38,503 bases of DNA from Actinomycetota bacterium (GTDB taxonomy: Bacteria > Actinomycetota > Acidimicrobiia > Acidimicrobiales > Acidimicrobilacustridaceae). The position numbers and the translations under genes are program-made. Below, one piece after another: positions 6,692-17,502 of this stretch. The notes beneath the pieces are model-generated. The model did not search any database and was not told the origin of the DNA. It saw nothing but the letters and a program-made list of their open reading frames with translations. The DNA is taken from the NCBI GenBank assembly GCA_009699125.1, contig WLOT01000004.1:1-38503 (forward strand). The letters are read 5' to 3'. Numbering within the stretch: position 1 is the first letter of the stretch; every line of letters starts with the position of its first letter.

Positions 6692-7609
6692 TTACGCTGC
6701 GTCAACCTCGAATGAGCCTTCAATTGCCCACGTGAGCGTGCGAATAAGCGCACGAGCGGCAGGTTGAACGACAAGCGGATCAAGCGCCGGAACGAGTGGC
6801 AATTTGAGTTCTTCGCGCATCCACGTTGGAAGCAAGCCGACTGCGGCGGGTGCGATCACGGCGTAGGCGGGTCGGGCGGAAAGTGGAAGCGGAGCAAGCA
6901 TGAGCCAGCGGGCTGCGTCACGCGCTTGTTGACCGGCTTCGAGTTCGGGGCGAATCTCATGCATCCACTCGTCGAGTTCGGCAACCGAACGTGCGGCGTA
7001 CTCGCCACCGAGTCCGTCGTTGATGACGGCCATTTCGTTGACATAGCGGTCGGCTTCAACCGAGCTCAGCTTCGTTGCCCCGTAACGCTGGTAGGTGCGC
7101 AGGAAGGAATCGACCTCGGCGTGGTGCACCCACGAAAGTAAGTGGGGATCGTTCGCCGAGTACTCGCGACCATCGGGGGCCGTACCGACAACGCGTTGAT
7201 GGACGCGGGTCACGAGTGCGAACGCGGCTTCGGCTTGTTCGGTTGTGCCGAAGGTGGTGGCAGCAACGAATTGGCTGGTGTTGGCAAGGCGATCAAGGGG
7301 ATGACGTCGGTAATCGGAATGGTCGGCAACGCCCGCCATCGCGAGTGGGTGCATCGTCTGCACGAGAATCGCACGAACGCCTGCGATGAGCATCGAGCCA
7401 TCGGAATGGACTCGCCAGGTGACGCTGTCGGGGCCGAAAAGACCGAGATCACCCTCGATGGGCTTGGTGAGATCTCGGACCGGAGGATTGTCTCCAGCGA
7501 TCAGTGTGCGGAGTTCTCGGCCGACTCGGACGCGCAAGTCGCCCAGCGCAGAACCGAGTGCTTCGGCGACGGCTGTCAGCCCGGGGGGCAGAGTCGGCTC
7601 GGGGGTCAT
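6692..7609 (-). CDS. Oxygenase MpaB-like / DUF2236 family protein
   Basis: GDLGLFGPDSVTWRVHSDGSMLIAGVRAILVQTMHPLAMAGVADHSDYRRHPLDRLANT...; start set at MTPEPTLPP. Confidence 0.8.
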   Translation of the reverse strand: MTPEPTLPPGLTAVAEALGSALGDLRVRVGRELRTLIAGDNPPVRDLTKPIEGDLGLFGPDSVTWRVHSDGSMLIAGVRAILVQTMHPLAMAGVADHSDYRRHPLDRLANTSQFVAATTFGTTEQAEAAFALVTRVHQRVVGTAPDGREYSANDPHLLSWVHHAEVDSFLRTYQRYGATKLSSVEADRYVNEMAVINDGLGGEYAARSVAELDEWMHEIRPELEAGQQARDAARWLMLAPLPLSARPAYAVIAPAAVGLLPTWMREELKLPLVPALDPLVVQPAARALIRTLTWAIEGSFEVDAA

Positions 7610-7649
7610 GGTCTGAGGATAGGGGTGGACGCCGCGAAACCGCCTGTCG

Positions 7650-7840
7650 GGGGAGTGGTGTGCAGGGTGATTGACGGCGGGCCACCTGTGTGGTGGGGTG
7701 GGGGCACAACTTGACCCACCGCAGTAGGGGAAGCCGGTCTGATTCCGGCGCTGACCCGCAACCGTAGGTGGCCTCCGAAGAGATTCTTTGGGCGGCCACG
7801 AGCCGGACTGCCTGCTCGGGGGGAAATGCTCCATCACAAG
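7650..7840 (+). promoter_or_regulatory. Cobalamin riboswitch (boundaries approximate)
   Basis: B12-box core GGGGAAGCCGGTCTGATTCCGGCGCTGACCCGCAACCGT at about 7727-7764; closed stem GTGGCC..GGCCAC with inner hairpin CCGAAGAgatTCTTTGG; 3' element GAGCCGGACTGCCTGC at about 7800-7815. Confidence 0.9.
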
Positions 7841-7954
7841 ACCGTCGTCGGATTACGGAAGGTGGGGCTCGGTTCGGTCGGCGGCCTTGGTCCGTGGTCC
7901 GGTCGGGTCTCGCACCCTTTTCCGGCACCAACACACCCCGAGTGGCCCCGCACC

Positions 7955-8851
7955 GTGAACCATCAGCTTCCATCGATTGCAACCAAGCGCTTGCATCAGA
8001 TGCGCGCGTCTCGGGCGATGGCTGCTGCGCTTGTGGGTGTCGTGGCCCTTGCTGGCATGCTCATGAGTTCTGCTGGCAACGCGAGCGCGTCGTCGTGTTC
8101 TGGTCCGTTAACCAATGGCGAGATTCGCGTCGTGCTTGTCGTTGATTCATCTGATCTTGGTGGAGGCGCCTCCGCAACGTGTTTGGTCGTGCCCGCAGGA
8201 ACGACTGGATCTCAGTTGCTGGCCCGAAGGGGCAGCGAACTCGGAACTGGTTCTCCCCGATACGGATCGAGTGGTTTGTTGTGCGCGATCGATGGTCGTC
8301 CTGCGACTGGCTGCGGCGATAAGAGTTCGAGCGGTTTTGGCTACTGGGCCTATTTCTTCGAAGCCGGTGGCAATTGGAATTACGGAAACAGCAATCCGTT
8401 TACGAAGCGTCTTGCTGACGGGGCGATTGAGGGCTGGAGATTTGTTGTAGGCGGATGCGGTTGCGGACAAGATCCGACGCCACGTATTGGTCCCTCGCTG
8501 TCGTTGTTTCCAGCACTCTCACCTGCACTCGCGCCTGCTCCTGAACTTCCGTCCCTGCCCGCATCGGGTTCGGCAACCGGAACGCCGTCTGGCGCAAGCA
8601 CCGGAGGAACGACTGCATCGACTGCGCTTTCTGGTGGCGACGTAACTATCGATCCGATCACTGGTGCAACCTCTGGCGTCTTAACGTCTGCGACGTCTGC
8701 TGTTGAACCCGTTGTCGTTGGAGACGTCGCTCTTGCAGCATCGAGCTCAACGCATTCGACGGCCGGTCGCTGGATCGGCATCGCTGCGGTGTTTGGCCTG
8801 ATTGCGGTCATGGCGGGTGGAGCGTGGGTGCAGACGCGCAGGTCTCGATGA
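7955..8851 (+). CDS. Exported, C-terminally anchored protein with DUF4430 / transcobalamin beta-like domain
   Basis: Signal-like hydrophobic N-terminus ending GNASASSCSG; YWAYFFEAGGNWNYGNSNPFTKRLADGAIEGWRFV motif; Ser/Thr/Gly/Pro linker; C-terminal TM (WIGIAAVFGLIAVMAGGAWV) plus RRSR. Start uncertain (GTG 7955 or ATG 8000). Confidence 0.75.
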   Translation: MNHQLPSIATKRLHQMRASRAMAAALVGVVALAGMLMSSAGNASASSCSGPLTNGEIRVVLVVDSSDLGGGASATCLVVPAGTTGSQLLARRGSELGTGSPRYGSSGLLCAIDGRPATGCGDKSSSGFGYWAYFFEAGGNWNYGNSNPFTKRLADGAIEGWRFVVGGCGCGQDPTPRIGPSLSLFPALSPALAPAPELPSLPASGSATGTPSGASTGGTTASTALSGGDVTIDPITGATSGVLTSATSAVEPVVVGDVALAASSSTHSTAGRWIGIAAVFGLIAVMAGGAWVQTRRSR

Positions 8852-9948
8852 CGGCGCCTCGACTCCTTCATCCGGGTGCGTGGTGGTTGTGGGCCGTGGC
8901 ATTGGCCGCGTGTGCGTTGCGCACGACCAATCCCGTTCTTCTTTGTCTCATCGTTGCGGTCGCTGGCTGGGTTGTGGTGTCCCGCCGTGCCGATGTTCCG
9001 TGGTCGCGATCATTTGCCAGCTTTTTACGGCTCGGAATGATCGTGATCATTGTTCGCCTTGTGTTCCAAATCCTGTTTGGCGTGCGCGTTCCGGGCACCA
9101 CGTTGTTCACCATTCCAGAAGTCACGCTTCCCGGATGGGCTGCTGGTGTAAGCCTCGGCGGGCCTGTCACGGTTGAATCGTTGATGGCTGCCCTTTACCA
9201 AGGTCTTCGACTTGCCGCTGTGTTGGCGTGCTTTGGTGCGGCAACTTCGTTGTGCAGTCCCTATCGCATGCTCCGCGCCCTTCCGACTGTCCTCTACGAA
9301 GCAGGTGTTGCAGTTACGATCGCATTTACGTTTGCGCCGCAGGCGATTGTTTCGTCCCGCCAAGTTCGTGAAGCGCGTCGATTACGTGGTCGATCTGATC
9401 GTGGCGTACGAGCGTGGACCGCCTCTGCCCTCCCGGTGCTTGAAGGCGCTCTCGACCGAGCGGTTGCCCTCGCCGCATCAATGGACAGTCGTGGGTACGG
9501 ACGACGTGGTTCAAGTTCTGCTTCGGTCCGTCGCCGTTCAATCGGTCTCGTGTTACTTGGCCTTGTCGCGATTGCTGTTGGTTCCTACGGGCTCCTTGAT
9601 CCCGGCGCTCCGGCGCTGTTTCGTATCCCCGCACTTGCGTTGGGCGCCGTTGCACTTCTCGGCGCGCTCGTTGCTGGCGGCAAATCGTCTACGCGAACTC
9701 GCTATCGACCAGACCCGTGGGTGGCACCCGAGTGGATCGTTTCGCTCGCTGGATTCGTTGCGTTTGGATCGTTCGTCATTGTCGGACGTCTGGGCGATGC
9801 GCTGAGTCCATCCACCAATCCGCTTGAGGTCCCTGCCGTTCCGTTCGTTGCTGTGGTCGGTCTGCTCGTTGGAACCCTGCCGGCCTGGTTTGCTCCGCAT
9901 CCACCCACGCTCGCCTCAACGGCTGCACCTTTGGTGGTCGCGGCATGA
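8848..9948 (+). CDS. ECF transporter T component (CbiQ/EcfT-like)
   Basis: Multi-TM; EARRLRGRSDRGVRAW and ASMDSRGYGRRG coupling-helix motifs; ATGA overlap with the upstream gene. Confidence 0.85.
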   Translation: MTAPRLLHPGAWWLWAVALAACALRTTNPVLLCLIVAVAGWVVVSRRADVPWSRSFASFLRLGMIVIIVRLVFQILFGVRVPGTTLFTIPEVTLPGWAAGVSLGGPVTVESLMAALYQGLRLAAVLACFGAATSLCSPYRMLRALPTVLYEAGVAVTIAFTFAPQAIVSSRQVREARRLRGRSDRGVRAWTASALPVLEGALDRAVALAASMDSRGYGRRGSSSASVRRRSIGLVLLGLVAIAVGSYGLLDPGAPALFRIPALALGAVALLGALVAGGKSSTRTRYRPDPWVAPEWIVSLAGFVAFGSFVIVGRLGDALSPSTNPLEVPAVPFVAVVGLLVGTLPAWFAPHPPTLASTAAPLVVAA

Positions 9949-11579
9949 TCAGGTTTGAGCACGTCACCATCACCTATCCCGAAGCGACCTCGCCCACATT
10001 GTTCGATGTTTCGTTTGAAGTACCCGAAGGCGAGCTTTGTCTCGTCGTCGGTGTGACTGGTTCGGGTAAGTCGACGCTTCTTCGAGCGGTCAATGGTTTG
10101 GTGCCGCGGTTCTCAGGTGGAGTTCTCTCAGGTTCGGTCGTGATCGATGGTCGAACAACTTCGGATGTCGCTCCGCGCGATCTTGCCGATGTCGTTGGTG
10201 TCGTTGGCCAAGATCCCGCGGCCGGTTTTGTGACTGACTACGTTGAAGATGAATTGGCCTACGCGATGGAGAACCTTGGCGTTGCTCCTGACGTCATGCG
10301 ACGACGCGTCGAAGACATTCTTGATCTCCTTGGTTTGCATGAACTCCGCAATCGCCCTCTTGCGTCGCTTTCTGGTGGTCAGCAGCAACGAGTTGCGATT
10401 GGCTCGGTGCTTACCGCCGGTCCACGAGTTCTTGTGCTTGATGAACCGACGTCGGCACTTGACCCAGCTGCGGCGGAAGAAGTTCTTGCCGCTCTGACGC
10501 GTTTGGTACATGACCTTGGCATCACCGTGTTGATTGCTGAACATCGGCTCGAACGAGTTGTGCAATATGCCGATCGCATTGTGATGGTGCCTGGCGATGG
10601 GCGCCCGGTCGTGGTTGGAACGCCGGCCGAAGTGTTTGGCGAATCAGTTGTGGCACCTCCGGTAGTTGAGTTGGGGCGCCTCGCGGGTTGGTCTCCGCTT
10701 CCCCTTTCGGTTCGAGATGCACGTCGTGTTGCTGGTCCACTTCGCGATCAACTTGCTTCCGTCGGTACCGAGGTCTTCAGTCGTGCCGTCCGGTCACTCG
10801 GCGATGTCGTTGCGACGACTGATTCGCTGCAGGCCTCGTATGGGCCCATCACTGCGCTTCGTGGTGTTGATCTTGAGTTTCGTGCTGGTGAAGTCGTTGC
10901 ACTCATGGGTCGAAACGGTGCGGGCAAGTCAACGCTGCTCAACCATCTTGTGGGACTGCGTGAGCCTGCTGCGGGAGCGGTGCAGGTAATGGGGTCGGTT
11001 CCTCACCGCCTTTCGGCTCGCGATGTGGTCCGCGTTGCCGGTTTGGTGCCGCAAGACAGTGGTGTGTTGCTCTACCACGACACCGTGGCGGCGGAATGCA
11101 GCGCCTCCGATCGAGACGCCGGTTTGGTGCATGGAACGACTCGAACCGTTCTCGATCGCATCGTCCCTGGCGTTGATGCGTCGATGCACCCTCGTGATCT
11201 GTCAGAGGGACAGCGTCTTGGCCTTGCCCTCTCGATCGTGTTGGCCTCTGAACCGCCGCTGCTTTTGCTTGACGAGCCCACTCGCGGCCTTGATTACGGA
11301 GCAAAGCAGCGACTGGTTGAAGTTCTTGCGCAACTTGCGGCCGATGGCCATGCCGTCGTTATCGCGACTCACGATGTTGAAGTTGTTGCCGCTGTTGCCG
11401 ATCGATGCATCGTGCTCGCTGAAGGAGAAGTGGTTGCCGACGGCCCGGCTCGCGACGTCGTGGTTCATTCGCCTGTGTTCGCGCCGCAGGTAGCGAAAGT
11501 TCTCGCCCCGTTGGCACTTCTGACAGTTCACGAGGTTGAATTGGCGCTTGCTGCGGCAAGCGATAGTTCCTACTCATGA
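9945..11579 (+). CDS. ECF transporter ATPase, fused EcfA-EcfA' (two ABC domains)
   Basis: Two Walker A motifs (GVTGSGKST, GRNGAGKST); signatures LSGGQQQRVAI and LSEGQRLGLAL; Walker B LVLDEPTSALD and LLLDEPTRGLD. Confidence 0.92.
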   Translation: MIRFEHVTITYPEATSPTLFDVSFEVPEGELCLVVGVTGSGKSTLLRAVNGLVPRFSGGVLSGSVVIDGRTTSDVAPRDLADVVGVVGQDPAAGFVTDYVEDELAYAMENLGVAPDVMRRRVEDILDLLGLHELRNRPLASLSGGQQQRVAIGSVLTAGPRVLVLDEPTSALDPAAAEEVLAALTRLVHDLGITVLIAEHRLERVVQYADRIVMVPGDGRPVVVGTPAEVFGESVVAPPVVELGRLAGWSPLPLSVRDARRVAGPLRDQLASVGTEVFSRAVRSLGDVVATTDSLQASYGPITALRGVDLEFRAGEVVALMGRNGAGKSTLLNHLVGLREPAAGAVQVMGSVPHRLSARDVVRVAGLVPQDSGVLLYHDTVAAECSASDRDAGLVHGTTRTVLDRIVPGVDASMHPRDLSEGQRLGLALSIVLASEPPLLLLDEPTRGLDYGAKQRLVEVLAQLAADGHAVVIATHDVEVVAAVADRCIVLAEGEVVADGPARDVVVHSPVFAPQVAKVLAPLALLTVHEVELALAAASDSSYS

Positions 11580-12415
11580 CCATCGCAACACCGCGCCGCG
11601 TCGATGCGGTTCGTCTTGGCCTCACGTCGTGGGTGTTACTGATAGCGGCATTCGCTCTCGGGATTGTGGCGTTTGCGTGGCCGTTGTTTGCGTCGGCGAG
11701 TTCGTCTCTTGATTCATCTCACAGCAGTGATGCGCCCTGGATCTTCGTCATCCTTATTCCGCTCTTGATTGGTGTGATCCTCGCGGAATTGGCTGATGGT
11801 TCGCTCGATGCGAAATCGGTTGCACTTTTGGGCGTCCTCGCTGCCAGCGGAGCGGTTCTTCGATTGCCGAGCGGGGGTGTTGCCGGATTCGAGCCGGTCT
11901 TCTTCTTGTTGGTGCCCGCTGGTCGGGTCTTCGGTCGTGGCTTTGGGTTTGTGCTTGGGGCGCTCACGCTCTTTGTGAGCGCATTGATCACTGGTGGCGT
12001 TGGTCCATGGCTGCCGTTTCAGATGTTCGGCGCTGCGTGGATTGGTTTCTTTGCTGGGTGCCTTCCGCCTGCACGCGGTCGGGTTGAGATCGCGATGTTG
12101 GCGACGTACGCAGCGATTTCTGCGTTGGCCTTCGGCCTCGTCATGAATCTTTGGTTCTGGCCGTTTGTGAGCTCCGGTGACACCACGGTGTCCTATGTGG
12201 CAGGCGATTCACTCACCGAAAATCTGCGTCGATTCTGGGGATTTCACATCACGACCTCGTTCGGATTCGACATCCCCCGTGCCATCTTCAGCGCGCTTTT
12301 TATTGTGATTGCCGGCCGTCCCGTTCTTGGGGCTCTTCGTAGGGTCGCGAGACGCGCCGCATTCGAAGCCCCTGTCACTTTTGTTGATGCTCCTGTGATT
12401 GGCGCTATCGACTGA
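11576..12415 (+). CDS. ECF transporter substrate-binding S component, predicted cobalamin/corrinoid specificity
   Basis: 279 aa multi-TM; GGVGPWLPFQMFGAAWIGFFAGCLPP; ATGA overlap with the ATPase; riboswitch context. Confidence 0.75.
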   Translation: MTIATPRRVDAVRLGLTSWVLLIAAFALGIVAFAWPLFASASSSLDSSHSSDAPWIFVILIPLLIGVILAELADGSLDAKSVALLGVLAASGAVLRLPSGGVAGFEPVFFLLVPAGRVFGRGFGFVLGALTLFVSALITGGVGPWLPFQMFGAAWIGFFAGCLPPARGRVEIAMLATYAAISALAFGLVMNLWFWPFVSSGDTTVSYVAGDSLTENLRRFWGFHITTSFGFDIPRAIFSALFIVIAGRPVLGALRRVARRAAFEAPVTFVDAPVIGAID

Positions 12416-12437: not shown

Positions 12438-13403
12438 ATGGCTCCTGTTGTCTTTGTCACCCGCCCATTGCCCGATCCCGGCATCAACGTGCTCATCGAA
12501 TCTGGTTTCGAGGTTCGAGCGAACAATGAGGATCGCCCACTTTTGCGCGAAGAACTCATGGCCGGCGTCCAAGGAGCCGACGCGCTCTTGTGCATGTTGA
12601 GCGATCGGATCGATACGGAGCTCCTTGAAGCGGCTCCCGCGTTGCGGGTCGTCTCGAATTACGCAGTCGGATTCGACAACATCGATGTCGCTGCTGCTCG
12701 TCAGCGAGGAATCGAAGTCACCACGACACCAGGTGTCCTGACTGACGCGACCGCCGATCTTGCATGGGCACTTCTGCTCGCCGCAGCAAGAAACCTCGGG
12801 GCCGGCGAGCGCTTAGTTCGAGCAGGGGAGTGGACGGGTTGGTCACCAACGCAACTGCTCGGTGAGCCGCTTCGCAATCAAACCCTTGGCATCGTGGGTA
12901 TGGGTGCAATCGGGCAAGCAGTTGCTCGTCGAGCACAGGGTTTCGGTATGCACGTTGTGTATTGCAACCGCAACCGTGTCGAATCGGAGATTGAAGATTC
13001 CCTTGATGCTGAGTTCGTTGCGCTGGACGATCTTCTTCGGCGCAGCGATTTCATTTCGTTGCACGCGCCTCTCAACGATCAGAGTCGGCACATGTTCAAT
13101 TCCCGTGCGTTCGGTCTCATGAAGCCGACGGCAGTGCTCGTTAACACTGGTCGTGGCGCAGTGATCGACGAGGCGGAATTGGTGAATGTTCTCCGAGATC
13201 GCCGAATCGCCGCTGCTGGTCTCGACGTTTACGAATTCGAACCGAAGATCACCGAGGGTTTGCTGACACTCGACAATGTTGTTCTTGCTCCGCACCTCGG
13301 CTCGGCGTCAACCCTGGCTCGAGGTGACATGGTTCGGCTGTGTTGCGAGAACATTGTCGAAGTTCTTGCAGGAAGACCAGCAGTAACTCCGGCTCCTGGT
13401 TGA
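12438..13403 (+). CDS. D-2-hydroxyacid dehydrogenase (glyoxylate/hydroxypyruvate reductase-like)
   Basis: LGIVGMGAIGQAVARRAQGFGMHVVYCNR; VLVNTGRGAVIDEAELV; APHLGSAS. Confidence 0.9.
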   Translation: MAPVVFVTRPLPDPGINVLIESGFEVRANNEDRPLLREELMAGVQGADALLCMLSDRIDTELLEAAPALRVVSNYAVGFDNIDVAAARQRGIEVTTTPGVLTDATADLAWALLLAAARNLGAGERLVRAGEWTGWSPTQLLGEPLRNQTLGIVGMGAIGQAVARRAQGFGMHVVYCNRNRVESEIEDSLDAEFVALDDLLRRSDFISLHAPLNDQSRHMFNSRAFGLMKPTAVLVNTGRGAVIDEAELVNVLRDRRIAAAGLDVYEFEPKITEGLLTLDNVVLAPHLGSASTLARGDMVRLCCENIVEVLAGRPAVTPAPG

Positions 13404-13410
13404 CCAACCG

Positions 13411-14259
13411 TTAGTTCTCGGCTGCGTCCCGGGCAATGCGATCGAATGCCTCGAGCATGTCGTTGGCTGATGTCGTGATCGCATCGGCATGAGCTCGGCG
13501 AGCATCTGCTTCGATCCCATGTCCGCCGATCACGATGGGGCAGCCGATCTGATCTCGAAGCGCGTCGGCGGTGGCGATCACGTTGTCATCAACTCCGGCA
13601 GTGCTTGAGCTGATTCCAACTGCCACAAGTCGATCCGCGCTGGTGGCGGCATCGATGAAGGATTCGATCGGGCTGTCGGCGCCCAGATCAATGACTGTGA
13701 ATCCACGTCCGCGAAGAAGGTCGGCGGCCATTGCGATCGGCACTGCGTGTTGGTCGCCGGCTACTGCTCCAATCACGATGGTGCCGCGAGTTTGTCCCGG
13801 GCGATTGAACTGCGGACCTAAGCGACCGATGAGACGATTTGTTACTGCTGTCGCACGGTGTTCCTCGGCGATTGAAACTTCTCCGACCGCCCAACCCGCG
13901 CCAATCGCGGCGAGAGAGGGGGCGAGGACGTCCAGGTAGACCGAGATTGGGGTGAGACCAGAAGCCATCGATGCTTCGATCACATTCCAAGCGCCTGCTT
14001 CGTCGCCTGCAGTCAAACGGTCGCCAAGCCGAGCCGACCAATCAACGCGCTCGCCTGATGCGCGCGGCGATGGTGAAGAGCGAAACTCGTCGAGCGCGTC
14101 CTTCGAGATTCGCCACCCTCCGCCAAGCTTTGTGGCGGCGAGTCGCCCGGTGCGGACGTACTTGTACGCAGTCATGTAATGAACGCCGAGAGTCTCGGCT
14201 GCTTCGGCGAGGGTGAGGTCTGTTGGTGCGGAGGCCGGCCGTTCTGTTGCTTTAATCAT
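13411..14259 (-). CDS. CarH-like cobalamin-binding transcriptional regulator with excisionase-type HTH
   Basis: N-terminal TLAEAAETLGVHYMTAYKYVRTGRLAATKLGGGWRISKDALDEF; W-x9-EH motif (WAVGEVSIAEEH); B12-fold AGDQHAVPIAMAADLLRGRGFTVIDLG with candidate His ligand. Confidence 0.85.
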   Translation of the reverse strand: MIKATERPASAPTDLTLAEAAETLGVHYMTAYKYVRTGRLAATKLGGGWRISKDALDEFRSSPSPRASGERVDWSARLGDRLTAGDEAGAWNVIEASMASGLTPISVYLDVLAPSLAAIGAGWAVGEVSIAEEHRATAVTNRLIGRLGPQFNRPGQTRGTIVIGAVAGDQHAVPIAMAADLLRGRGFTVIDLGADSPIESFIDAATSADRLVAVGISSSTAGVDDNVIATADALRDQIGCPIVIGGHGIEADARRAHADAITTSANDMLEAFDRIARDAAEN

Positions 14260-14375: not shown

Positions 14376-15038
14376 CTAGCGGGGGGAGATTCTGGCGAGA
14401 ACCGTTGGAACGCTCGAGAGAACATCAACTTCAAGATGTTCGGTGAGCCAATCGCGATTGCGCTTGTGGAGGTCATCGGCAGGATCGAATCGATTGAGAA
14501 CGACGATCGGGGTGGCGACATGAGCACCGCTATTGATGGCTTCAAGGCTGAGGATGATCTGATTAATTGTTCCGAGTCCAGCATCGGCGACAAGCAACAC
14601 GATGTCGGGTTGAAGAATTTCGATGAGGCTGATCGAATCGCCGTTCGATGCGAGTGGTGAACGAACTCCTCCAGCCGATTCAACAAACGCGACACTTGGA
14701 GCGGGAAGTGGCCACTGAATTTCTGAGGCGAGATCTTCGACCGAAAACTGCGGACGGGCGAGCGCATCGGCAGCCATGGGAGGTGCCATAGGGATGGGAT
14801 ACCAGCGGTGACGGGGACACACGTCGTTTGGGGATTCGCCCGAAGCGTCGGCGAGCAAGTGAGCGTCGGTGAGCGCGTCATCGGAATCGAACGACTGCGC
14901 TGGTTTGCGCGCTGCGACATCGACACCTTTGGAGCGAAGGTCGCGCAACAGGCGTGCAGTGACGTAGGTCTTACCGACCTCAGTGCCAGTGCCGACAACG
15001 ACGACAAGGTTCTGTGGTCGTAATCCGTCGAATGTCAT
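14376..15038 (-). CDS. bioD: Dethiobiotin synthase
   Basis: VVVVGTGTEVGKTYVTARLLRDL P-loop; KPAQSFD; VESAGGVRSPL. Confidence 0.9.
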   Translation of the reverse strand: MTFDGLRPQNLVVVVGTGTEVGKTYVTARLLRDLRSKGVDVAARKPAQSFDSDDALTDAHLLADASGESPNDVCPRHRWYPIPMAPPMAADALARPQFSVEDLASEIQWPLPAPSVAFVESAGGVRSPLASNGDSISLIEILQPDIVLLVADAGLGTINQIILSLEAINSGAHVATPIVVLNRFDPADDLHKRNRDWLTEHLEVDVLSSVPTVLARISPR

Positions 15039-16192: not shown

Positions 16193-17502
16193 ACCTCGTT
16201 GATCGATGCTTCCAGTGAGTCGACGATGCGGTCGATCTCTTCAGCGGTTGACGTGAGGATGGGCATGAGGACGACGACGTCGCCGAGAGGTCGCAAAAGT
16301 ACGCCACGGTTCACCGATGCGGCGCACACCAGGCGGCCCCAACGAAGACCGTCTTCGGGCGGAGCAAGTTCCACGCCGACCATGAGTCCATGTTGGCGAA
16401 TCTCTTTAATCGCAGAGTTTCCACTCGCGAGTACTTCGAGTCGAGCGCGAAGTTGCGATGAGCGCTCGCGGACATTGGCAAGCACGTCGAGTTCTTCGAA
16501 CAATTGAAGGTGACGAAGTGCGACAGCGGCCGCTAGTGCGTTTCCAGAGAATGAGTGCCCGTGGTAGAGGGTCATCTCGCTGAGATCTGGCCCGAGGAAG
16601 GCTTCGTAGACGCGCCGAGATGCGACGGTTGCTGCCATGGCGAGGTAACCGCCAGTCAGGCCTTTTCCGATGCACATGATGTCGGGGCGAACTCGGCACT
16701 GTTCTGTGGCAAACAGCGTTCCGGTTCGGCCAAATCCAGTTGCGACTTCATCGGCAATAAGCAGAACATCATGTTCTCTGCAGGCGTCGCCAACTCGTTC
16801 GACAGATTCCGGATCGGTGATCCACATGCCAGCAGCGCCCTGCACCAAAGGTTCGATGACGACAGCAGCAAGTTCATGAGCGTGAGCGCGAATCATGGCG
16901 ACTGCGGTATCTGCCCAACCCAGATCGTCGTAACCAGGAGCGCGCAGTACGTCAAAGCGGAGAGGATCGAAGACATCGGTGCCGAATCCACCAGCTCCGA
17001 TGGAGATCGCTCCGATGGTGTCGCCGTGATAGGCGCCACCGAGCGTGAGGTAGCGAGTGCGGTCGTTGATTCCTTGATTCGTCCAGTACTGAAAAGCAAT
17101 CTTGATTGCCTGTTCAACTGCAGCCGCACCATCGGACGCAAAGAGGAAGTGCGGCTCGCTTACGGGTACCCGAGGCGCAAGCGCTTCTGCGAGTTCGATC
17201 GTGATTCGGTTTCCGTTGCCGAGCATCGTGGTGTGCGCGACCCGATCGAGTTGTTCTCGCGCTGCTGCATCAAGTTCGGGAACGCGATGGCCGAGCGTTG
17301 TCACCCAAAGTGAAGAGATGGCGTCGAGGTAGCGAGTGCCGTCGACATCGATGAGTTCTCGCCCTTCGGCGTAGTCGACGATGATCGGCCGATTCTGCGC
17401 GTAGGTCGACATTTGGGTGAAGCCGTGCCATACGACGGCAGCATCTCGGTCCACCCAACGATCGTGTGCGCTGGTGAGAGACCCTTGGTCGGCATTTGTC
17501 AC
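16180..17502 (-). CDS. bioA: Adenosylmethionine-8-amino-7-oxononanoate aminotransferase
   Basis: DAISSLWVTTLGHRVPELD; GGAYHGDTIGAISIG; LLIADEVATGFGRTGTLFA; GKGLTGGYLAM; YHGHSFSGNALA. GTG start at 17502 overlaps the upstream stop. Confidence 0.92.
   Translation of the reverse strand: MTNADQGSLTSAHDRWVDRDAAVVWHGFTQMSTYAQNRPIIVDYAEGRELIDVDGTRYLDAISSLWVTTLGHRVPELDAAAREQLDRVAHTTMLGNGNRITIELAEALAPRVPVSEPHFLFASDGAAAVEQAIKIAFQYWTNQGINDRTRYLTLGGAYHGDTIGAISIGAGGFGTDVFDPLRFDVLRAPGYDDLGWADTAVAMIRAHAHELAAVVIEPLVQGAAGMWITDPESVERVGDACREHDVLLIADEVATGFGRTGTLFATEQCRVRPDIMCIGKGLTGGYLAMAATVASRRVYEAFLGPDLSEMTLYHGHSFSGNALAAAVALRHLQLFEELDVLANVRERSSQLRARLEVLASGNSAIKEIRQHGLMVGVELAPPEDGLRWGRLVCAASVNRGVLLRPLGDVVVLMPILTSTAEEIDRIVDSLEASINEVCAQ

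Follow-up and report, generated by a model that had tools for sequence, protein, structure and literature searches.

Bacterial relatives of the animal vitamin B12 carriers were described by Burroughs et al. (2007; PMC1796856), who defined a transcobalamin-like clade of SLBB domains, with operons that include CbiO and CbiQ and with toroid fusions, and who inferred a role in B12 scavenging. The hosts of that clade were low-GC Gram-positives, planctomycetes and euryarchaea, usually without B12 synthesis (PMC1796856). Here we analyze a stretch of 38,503 nucleotides (contig WLOT01000004.1, positions 1 to 38,503, of assembly GCA_009699125.1; referred to throughout as the window) from an actinobacterium of the Acidimicrobilacustridaceae. 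The window carries an operon that joins an exported protein with a predicted transcobalamin-type beta-grasp domain (beta) to an energy-coupling factor (ECF) transporter under a cobalamin riboswitch, and a second riboswitched locus in the same genome encodes an exported alpha/alpha-toroid protein (alpha). The kind of system is thus already known as a prediction, since the 2007 study described the clade, the operons, the fusions and the scavenging. A sequence-only reading of the window had put forward capture by the beta domain, an idea that is not original in kind because that study anticipates it (PMC1796856).

Like the members of the Burroughs clade, which are exported, often anchored beta-grasp domains whose genes lie with those for CbiO-like ATPases and CbiQ-like membrane proteins (PMC1796856), the window protein is encoded in an operon with CbiO-like and CbiQ-like genes, and its host genus lacks CbiC. 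In contrast to that clade, the system here is found in Actinomycetota, its two halves lie on separate genes (in the window family, at separate riboswitched loci), permuted forms occur, and the sequence is no longer matched by Pfam. With animal transcobalamin, intrinsic factor and haptocorrin the system shares the beta fold, and fused relatives also share the order of toroid followed by beta; the animal carriers are single soluble chains delivered to receptors, whereas the bacterial proteins are split, surface-associated and ECF-coupled, with predicted corrinoid binding. The window protein consists of the beta part alone, and a single chain of toroid plus beta, in the transcobalamin order, is found at L181 and L201, two loci from metagenome-assembled genomes.

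To our knowledge, the ECF importer class is normally thought to need no extracellular partner. Our comparison with two described ECF systems extends to the sections of the sources cited for them here. ECF-CbrT, an experimentally studied ECF transporter that carries cobalamin and cobinamide, resembles the system proposed here as a corrinoid transporter in hosts without BtuCDF; CbrT is a solitary S component that draws on the common ECF module, and those sections describe no extracellular partner for it (PMC5997447), whereas the window encodes a dedicated four-gene module that includes an extracellular beta partner. Similarly, a riboswitch-controlled ECF module has been proposed as the cobalamin transporter of B12-auxotrophic acI freshwater actinobacteria, and differs from the window operon in that the sections cited mention no extracellular binding partner (PMC5301498). 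The SCO2321 and SCO2322 families (NF053823 and NF040672) are the same two families as alpha and beta, with the same adjacency in Streptomyces-type genomes, but they bear functionless names and are both circularly permuted relative to the window family. In the open-access literature on DUF4430, SCO2321, SCO2322 and transcobalamin-like proteins (subscription papers and preprints were outside its scope), we found no experimental study of the system. Nor did we find described there the features that we regard as new, namely an Actinomycetota-wide five-gene system, an alpha half encoded in trans with a riboswitch to itself, and a circular permutation that, in part of the phylum, affects alpha and beta jointly.

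The window operon begins with a cobalamin riboswitch aptamer (7671..7834, + strand). The Rfam model RF00174 matched positions 7671-7833 (+) with 31.7 bits, which passes the gathering score of 31.5, and with an E value of 1.8e-4 within the window and 2.1e-6 genome-wide; taken alone, this match is marginal. A family covariance model (R1), trained on 24 leaders of relatives (14 beta and 10 alpha), gave 150.6 bits at 7681-7834, where the window is itself one training sequence; independent support from this model comes only from matches outside its 24 training leaders. At all of the other 32 family loci, this model places a riboswitch 5' of the beta gene, in one case only in part. Rfam alone finds a gathering-level riboswitch in about half of the relatives' beta loci, and orthologous beta leaders score up to 42.5 bits against RF00174. 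Four genes follow the riboswitch (7955-8851, 8848-9948, 9945-11579 and 11576-12415), with ATGA overlaps, read directly off the sequence, at 8848-8851, 9945-9948 and 11576-11579. The riboswitch, the four genes and the three ATGA junctions are as the sequence-only reading had described them. The order beta-EcfT-EcfAA'-EcfS is not due to chance, because it is kept in nearly all family relatives with a sufficiently long contig.

The first gene (7955..8851, +) encodes the beta component from a GTG start at 7955, with an ATG at 8000 as an alternative start. The protein has an N-terminal signal sequence and, at its C-terminus, a hydrophobic stretch followed by RRSR (8765..8848, +; sequence and hydropathy), both of which are kept in relatives, in agreement with the earlier proposal of an exported, C-terminally anchored surface protein. 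Beta orthologues are present in 34 of the 61 genomes searched, the window's own genome counted. The protein matches NF040672 (SCO2322_fam) with an E value of 8.5e-16 and 58.6 bits, under the cut-off of 85, and does so as two stretches in permuted order; judged by sequence comparison, it is an SCO2322-family homologue of a distinct, unpermuted branch. An AlphaFold2 model of the beta-grasp domain (8120..8455, +), based on an alignment of 40 natural sequences, reached a predicted local distance difference test score (pLDDT) of 91 and a predicted template modeling score (pTM) of 0.87. When this model was compared by Foldseek with all of the PDB, places 1-18 were taken by transcobalamin, haptocorrin, intrinsic factor and 3u7z, a Ruminococcus gnavus protein (against 2bb6, E 1.6e-4 and probability 1.00). 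The template modeling (TM) scores against the isolated human transcobalamin beta domain, normalized to the target, were 0.69 for 5np4, which contains cyanocobalamin, and 0.72 for 5no0, which does not. As modeled, the window domain has the transcobalamin-type beta fold that characterizes the SLBB transcobalamin clade, which is what the sequence-only reading had expected structure prediction and superposition to reveal.

The remaining genes of the operon encode a dedicated ECF module in which EcfT, two ATPase domains and an S component are encoded together, as had been assigned from the sequence. EcfT (8848..9948, +) is the CbiQ-like transmembrane subunit (PF02361, E 3.9e-7), and its gene overlaps that of beta. 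EcfAA' (9945..11579, +), whose gene overlaps ecfT, comprises two fused ATP-binding cassette (ABC) ATPase domains (ABC_tran, PF00005 twice, E 3.5e-52) and matches ECF ATPase models of NCBIfam. EcfS, the substrate component (11576..12415, +), overlaps ecfAA' in its turn; it belongs to a conserved family alignment and is weakly recognized by the ECF S model TIGR04518, with 16.8 bits, under the cut-off of 60 (best E value among homologues, 4.4e-6). When GTDB genomes were searched with no query other than the S component, we recovered 58 loci with enough upstream DNA, all of which had EcfT and EcfAA', and 56 of which had beta. Since the S query holds no information on beta, the coupling of beta to the ECF transporter is a property of the system; the conserved neighborhood predicted for the domain is indeed observed.

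The sequence-only reading had described the window protein as a counterpart of the animal carriers without their alpha/alpha barrel, and in this respect it is not supported. The sole other RF00174 match in the genome lies on another contig (G000:C137:35103-35239; 30.7 bits, narrowly short of the gathering score), and this leader scores 84.0 bits with the family covariance model, of which it is a training sequence. It precedes the alpha gene (G000:C137:33827-35002, - strand), which encodes an exported alpha/alpha-toroid protein of ~392 residues that matches NF053823 (SCO2321_fam) with an E value of 5.2e-28 and 98.1 bits, under the cut-off of 300. This match identifies the protein as a homologue of the SCO2321 family, though below the curated cut-off; in Streptomyces, SCO2321 and SCO2322 are consecutive locus numbers. 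A sequence search of the PDB with alpha found nothing relevant. Related alpha proteins are encoded in 29 of 37 family genomes, and the family covariance model places cobalamin riboswitch leaders at 26 of the 28 alpha loci examined; Rfam also finds such leaders there. Among 61 genomes, the presence of alpha is associated with that of beta: 28 have both, 6 beta only, 4 alpha only and 23 neither (Fisher P value 1.2e-7, with shared ancestry ignored). In one relative (G027), alpha and beta lie ~857 kb apart on one contig of 2.0 Mb; because both are on a single contig, the separation is genuine and does not stem from a gap in the assembly. Thus, the earlier interpretation was right in kind, in that it recognized the beta fold, the surface location, the riboswitch and the ECF coupling, and was incomplete in that an alpha toroid exists.

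The alpha proteins of the window family (L067-L095) share a short C-terminal motif: 26 of 29 end in [FY][TA]G right before the stop codon, usually after P-x, and lack a membrane segment. The window genome's own copy ends in VPSFTG. Alpha proteins in other Actinomycetota often have an LPxTG- or LAxTG-like motif with a hydrophobic segment and a basic tail, or a membrane segment, and most relatives have sortase genes. A family alpha protein shortened by a frameshift, with its anchor in another frame, was considered and rejected, as no hydrophobic segment is encoded 3' of the stop in any frame. At L069 (G019:C13), an in-frame TGA occurs near the end of the alpha gene, and the frame then runs on to the conserved FTG tail. 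A tandem glycine riboswitch lies divergent to the alpha gene at L066:8187-8437 and is kept beside alpha in many family members.

The association of alpha with beta is closer elsewhere in the phylum. In a draw of 247 genomes, beta was found in 31, of which 30 have an alpha match and 25 have alpha and beta adjacent; the commonest arrangement is alpha-beta-EcfT-EcfAA'-EcfS, with alpha directly 5' of beta. Relative to the window family, alpha and beta are both circularly permuted at 20 loci (L139-L143, L175, L176, L184, L186, L195, L202, L205, L208, L216, L221-L223, L225, L228 and L235) and neither is permuted at 31, with 0 discordant loci, which supports a common function. A single origin of the permuted form is unsupported on a tree of EcfT and EcfS, in which the permuted loci do not group together as a single clade and the deep nodes are weak. 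One locus of 20 kb, L220 from Actinophytocola oryzae, has cobalamin riboswitch matches at 2665-2805, 12021-12159 and 16638-16778, the third of them just 5' of an alpha gene located beyond the ECF operon.

Besides the two alpha-beta fusions, chains of the form alpha-beta-beta and beta-alpha-alpha occur. A model of the L201 fusion (pLDDT 87.8, pTM 0.77) was compared with the PDB, and the best 13 matches were full-length transcobalamin, haptocorrin and intrinsic factor, with E values from 5e-9 to 3e-7 and alignments that span 470-489 columns; terpene cyclases came next in the list. At L145 (4397-7279), a single protein comprises alpha, beta, a second beta and then a further C-terminal region, which we take to resemble a cell-wall-binding repeat domain. 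The tandem beta copies of this protein, judged by their arrangement, are of the kind expected of an intermediate in circular permutation.

Proteins with a B12-binding domain are encoded in 21 of 21 genomes of the host genus. Family searches found CbiC in 0 of 21, and the BtuC/FecCD permease in 0 of 21, where other B12 importers (for example, of the BacA type) were not searched for. The window genome is 80.75% complete, and these absences hold over 21 genomes, several of them more than 90% complete. Since CbiC and BtuC/FecCD are both absent, the genus looks dependent on external corrinoid without a route of the BtuCDF type, and the alpha/beta/ECF system is its best candidate for a B12 importer. 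The host, a freshwater-type actinobacterium, appears to scavenge B12 with a two-piece, transcobalamin-like surface protein.

We consider it likely that the system as a whole is a two-part extracellular device for corrinoid capture coupled to an ECF importer, with beta anchored and alpha encoded separately. The beta-grasp domain would be tethered to the membrane through the C-terminus of its protein, beside the ECF complex, and alpha and beta together would clamp a corrinoid outside the membrane, in the manner of the two domains of transcobalamin. Beta would then pass the corrinoid to the S component, and EcfT and EcfAA' would reset the S component and drive import. At high intracellular cobalamin, both riboswitches would be expected to switch off both loci. 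The window system is real and conserved, and is probably a functional route of corrinoid uptake. For the narrower claim of a two-protein transcobalamin encoded in trans (an alpha-beta spacing of 0.86 Mb in G027), each half riboswitched, that loads an ECF transporter dependent on its extracellular partner, we see an even chance.

Several observations weigh against the proposal of a two-part capture device. The beta protein has no Pfam match at E≤1, none of 40 family members has a DUF4430 match in Pfam at E≤0.1, and a sequence search of the PDB with beta found no relevant chain. The DUF4430 assignment, for which a hidden Markov model (HMM) search with PF14478 had been suggested, therefore failed; the guess of the fold was right despite this, because the top places in the Foldseek search are beta domains of B12 carriers. 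Similarly, the S component has no Pfam family match, and a profile of 16 homologues found no relevant chain in the PDB, including the B12 S components of the CbrT and BtuM type; on this evidence, it is not assignable to a known B12 S family. Somewhat unlikely, in our view, is that the module imports a precursor or relative of B12, such as cobinamide or another cobamide, and not cobalamin itself: cobinamide is a substrate of ECF-CbrT alongside cobalamin (PMC5997447), and riboswitch control is silent on which corrinoid enters.

With respect to alpha, searches for the protein came up empty in 6 of the 34 genomes that have beta, mostly incomplete ones, and the alpha proteins of the window family are without a membrane anchor. 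It is unlikely that beta alone is the surface cobalamin receptor and the toroid a separate, cobalamin-regulated secreted protein. The lack of linkage between alpha and beta in the window family and the six genomes without alpha would fit such a receptor, as would 5np4, in which the human beta domain is seen by itself with cyanocobalamin, but the adjacency in 25 of the genomes drawn from the phylum, the fusions and the perfect joint permutation argue for a pair.

The fold of alpha does not by itself decide its function. Of the 20 sequences in the alpha alignment, 10 match SQHop_cyclase_C, and Prenyltrans models are also matched by alpha homologues; since these models include squalene-cyclase toroids, a toroid alone cannot identify a B12 carrier. 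Moreover, cyclases superpose on the L201 fusion model at higher TM scores than transcobalamin does, and the root mean square deviation between that model and transcobalamin is ~20 A, which implies that the domain placement either differs from that of the animal proteins or is undetermined by the model. These matches, and the cyclases among the PDB fold matches, would fit an extracellular, terpene-cyclase-like enzyme unconnected with B12 binding; we consider this very unlikely, since alpha is exported, has its own cobalamin riboswitch, is fused to or adjoins a beta domain, and full-length transcobalamin comes first in the fold search with the L201 fusion. Finally, EcfT is CbiQ-like (PF02361) and cobalt transporters can also be under cobalamin riboswitches (PMC3766115), but we reject as extremely improbable a riboswitched cobalt or nickel transporter of the CbiMNQO kind, since the S component has no Pfam match and hence no match to a metal family, the absence of CbiC in 21 of 21 genomes of the genus leaves no apparent cobalt demand for de novo synthesis, and the beta domain is folded like those of B12 carriers.

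If alpha and beta do capture corrinoid for the ECF importer, dedicated extracellular capture can occur in ECF transporters, a class described as taking its substrate straight through the S component, and the architecture of the animal B12 carriers has bacterial counterparts in which the halves are still two separate, co-regulated proteins. The proposal supplies a hypothesis of function for two uncharacterized families of Streptomyces and relatives, SCO2321 and SCO2322. It also points to the system as the best candidate for B12 import in a genus that apparently relies on B12 made by others.

The operon has several neighbors in the window. A gene for a helix-turn-helix regulator with B12-binding domains (13411..14259, - strand; HTH_17, B12-binding_2 and B12-binding) is convergent to the operon, and B12-binding matches occur near the operon in many congeners; we list it as an associated neighbor of the system. 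A D-2-hydroxyacid dehydrogenase gene (12441-13403, +) starts just 3' of ecfS, and a gene for a P-loop protein of the BioD/CbiA type lies at 14376-15038 (-). On the other side, a gene for an MPAB/Lcp oxygenase-type protein (6692-7837, -) is divergent from the operon.

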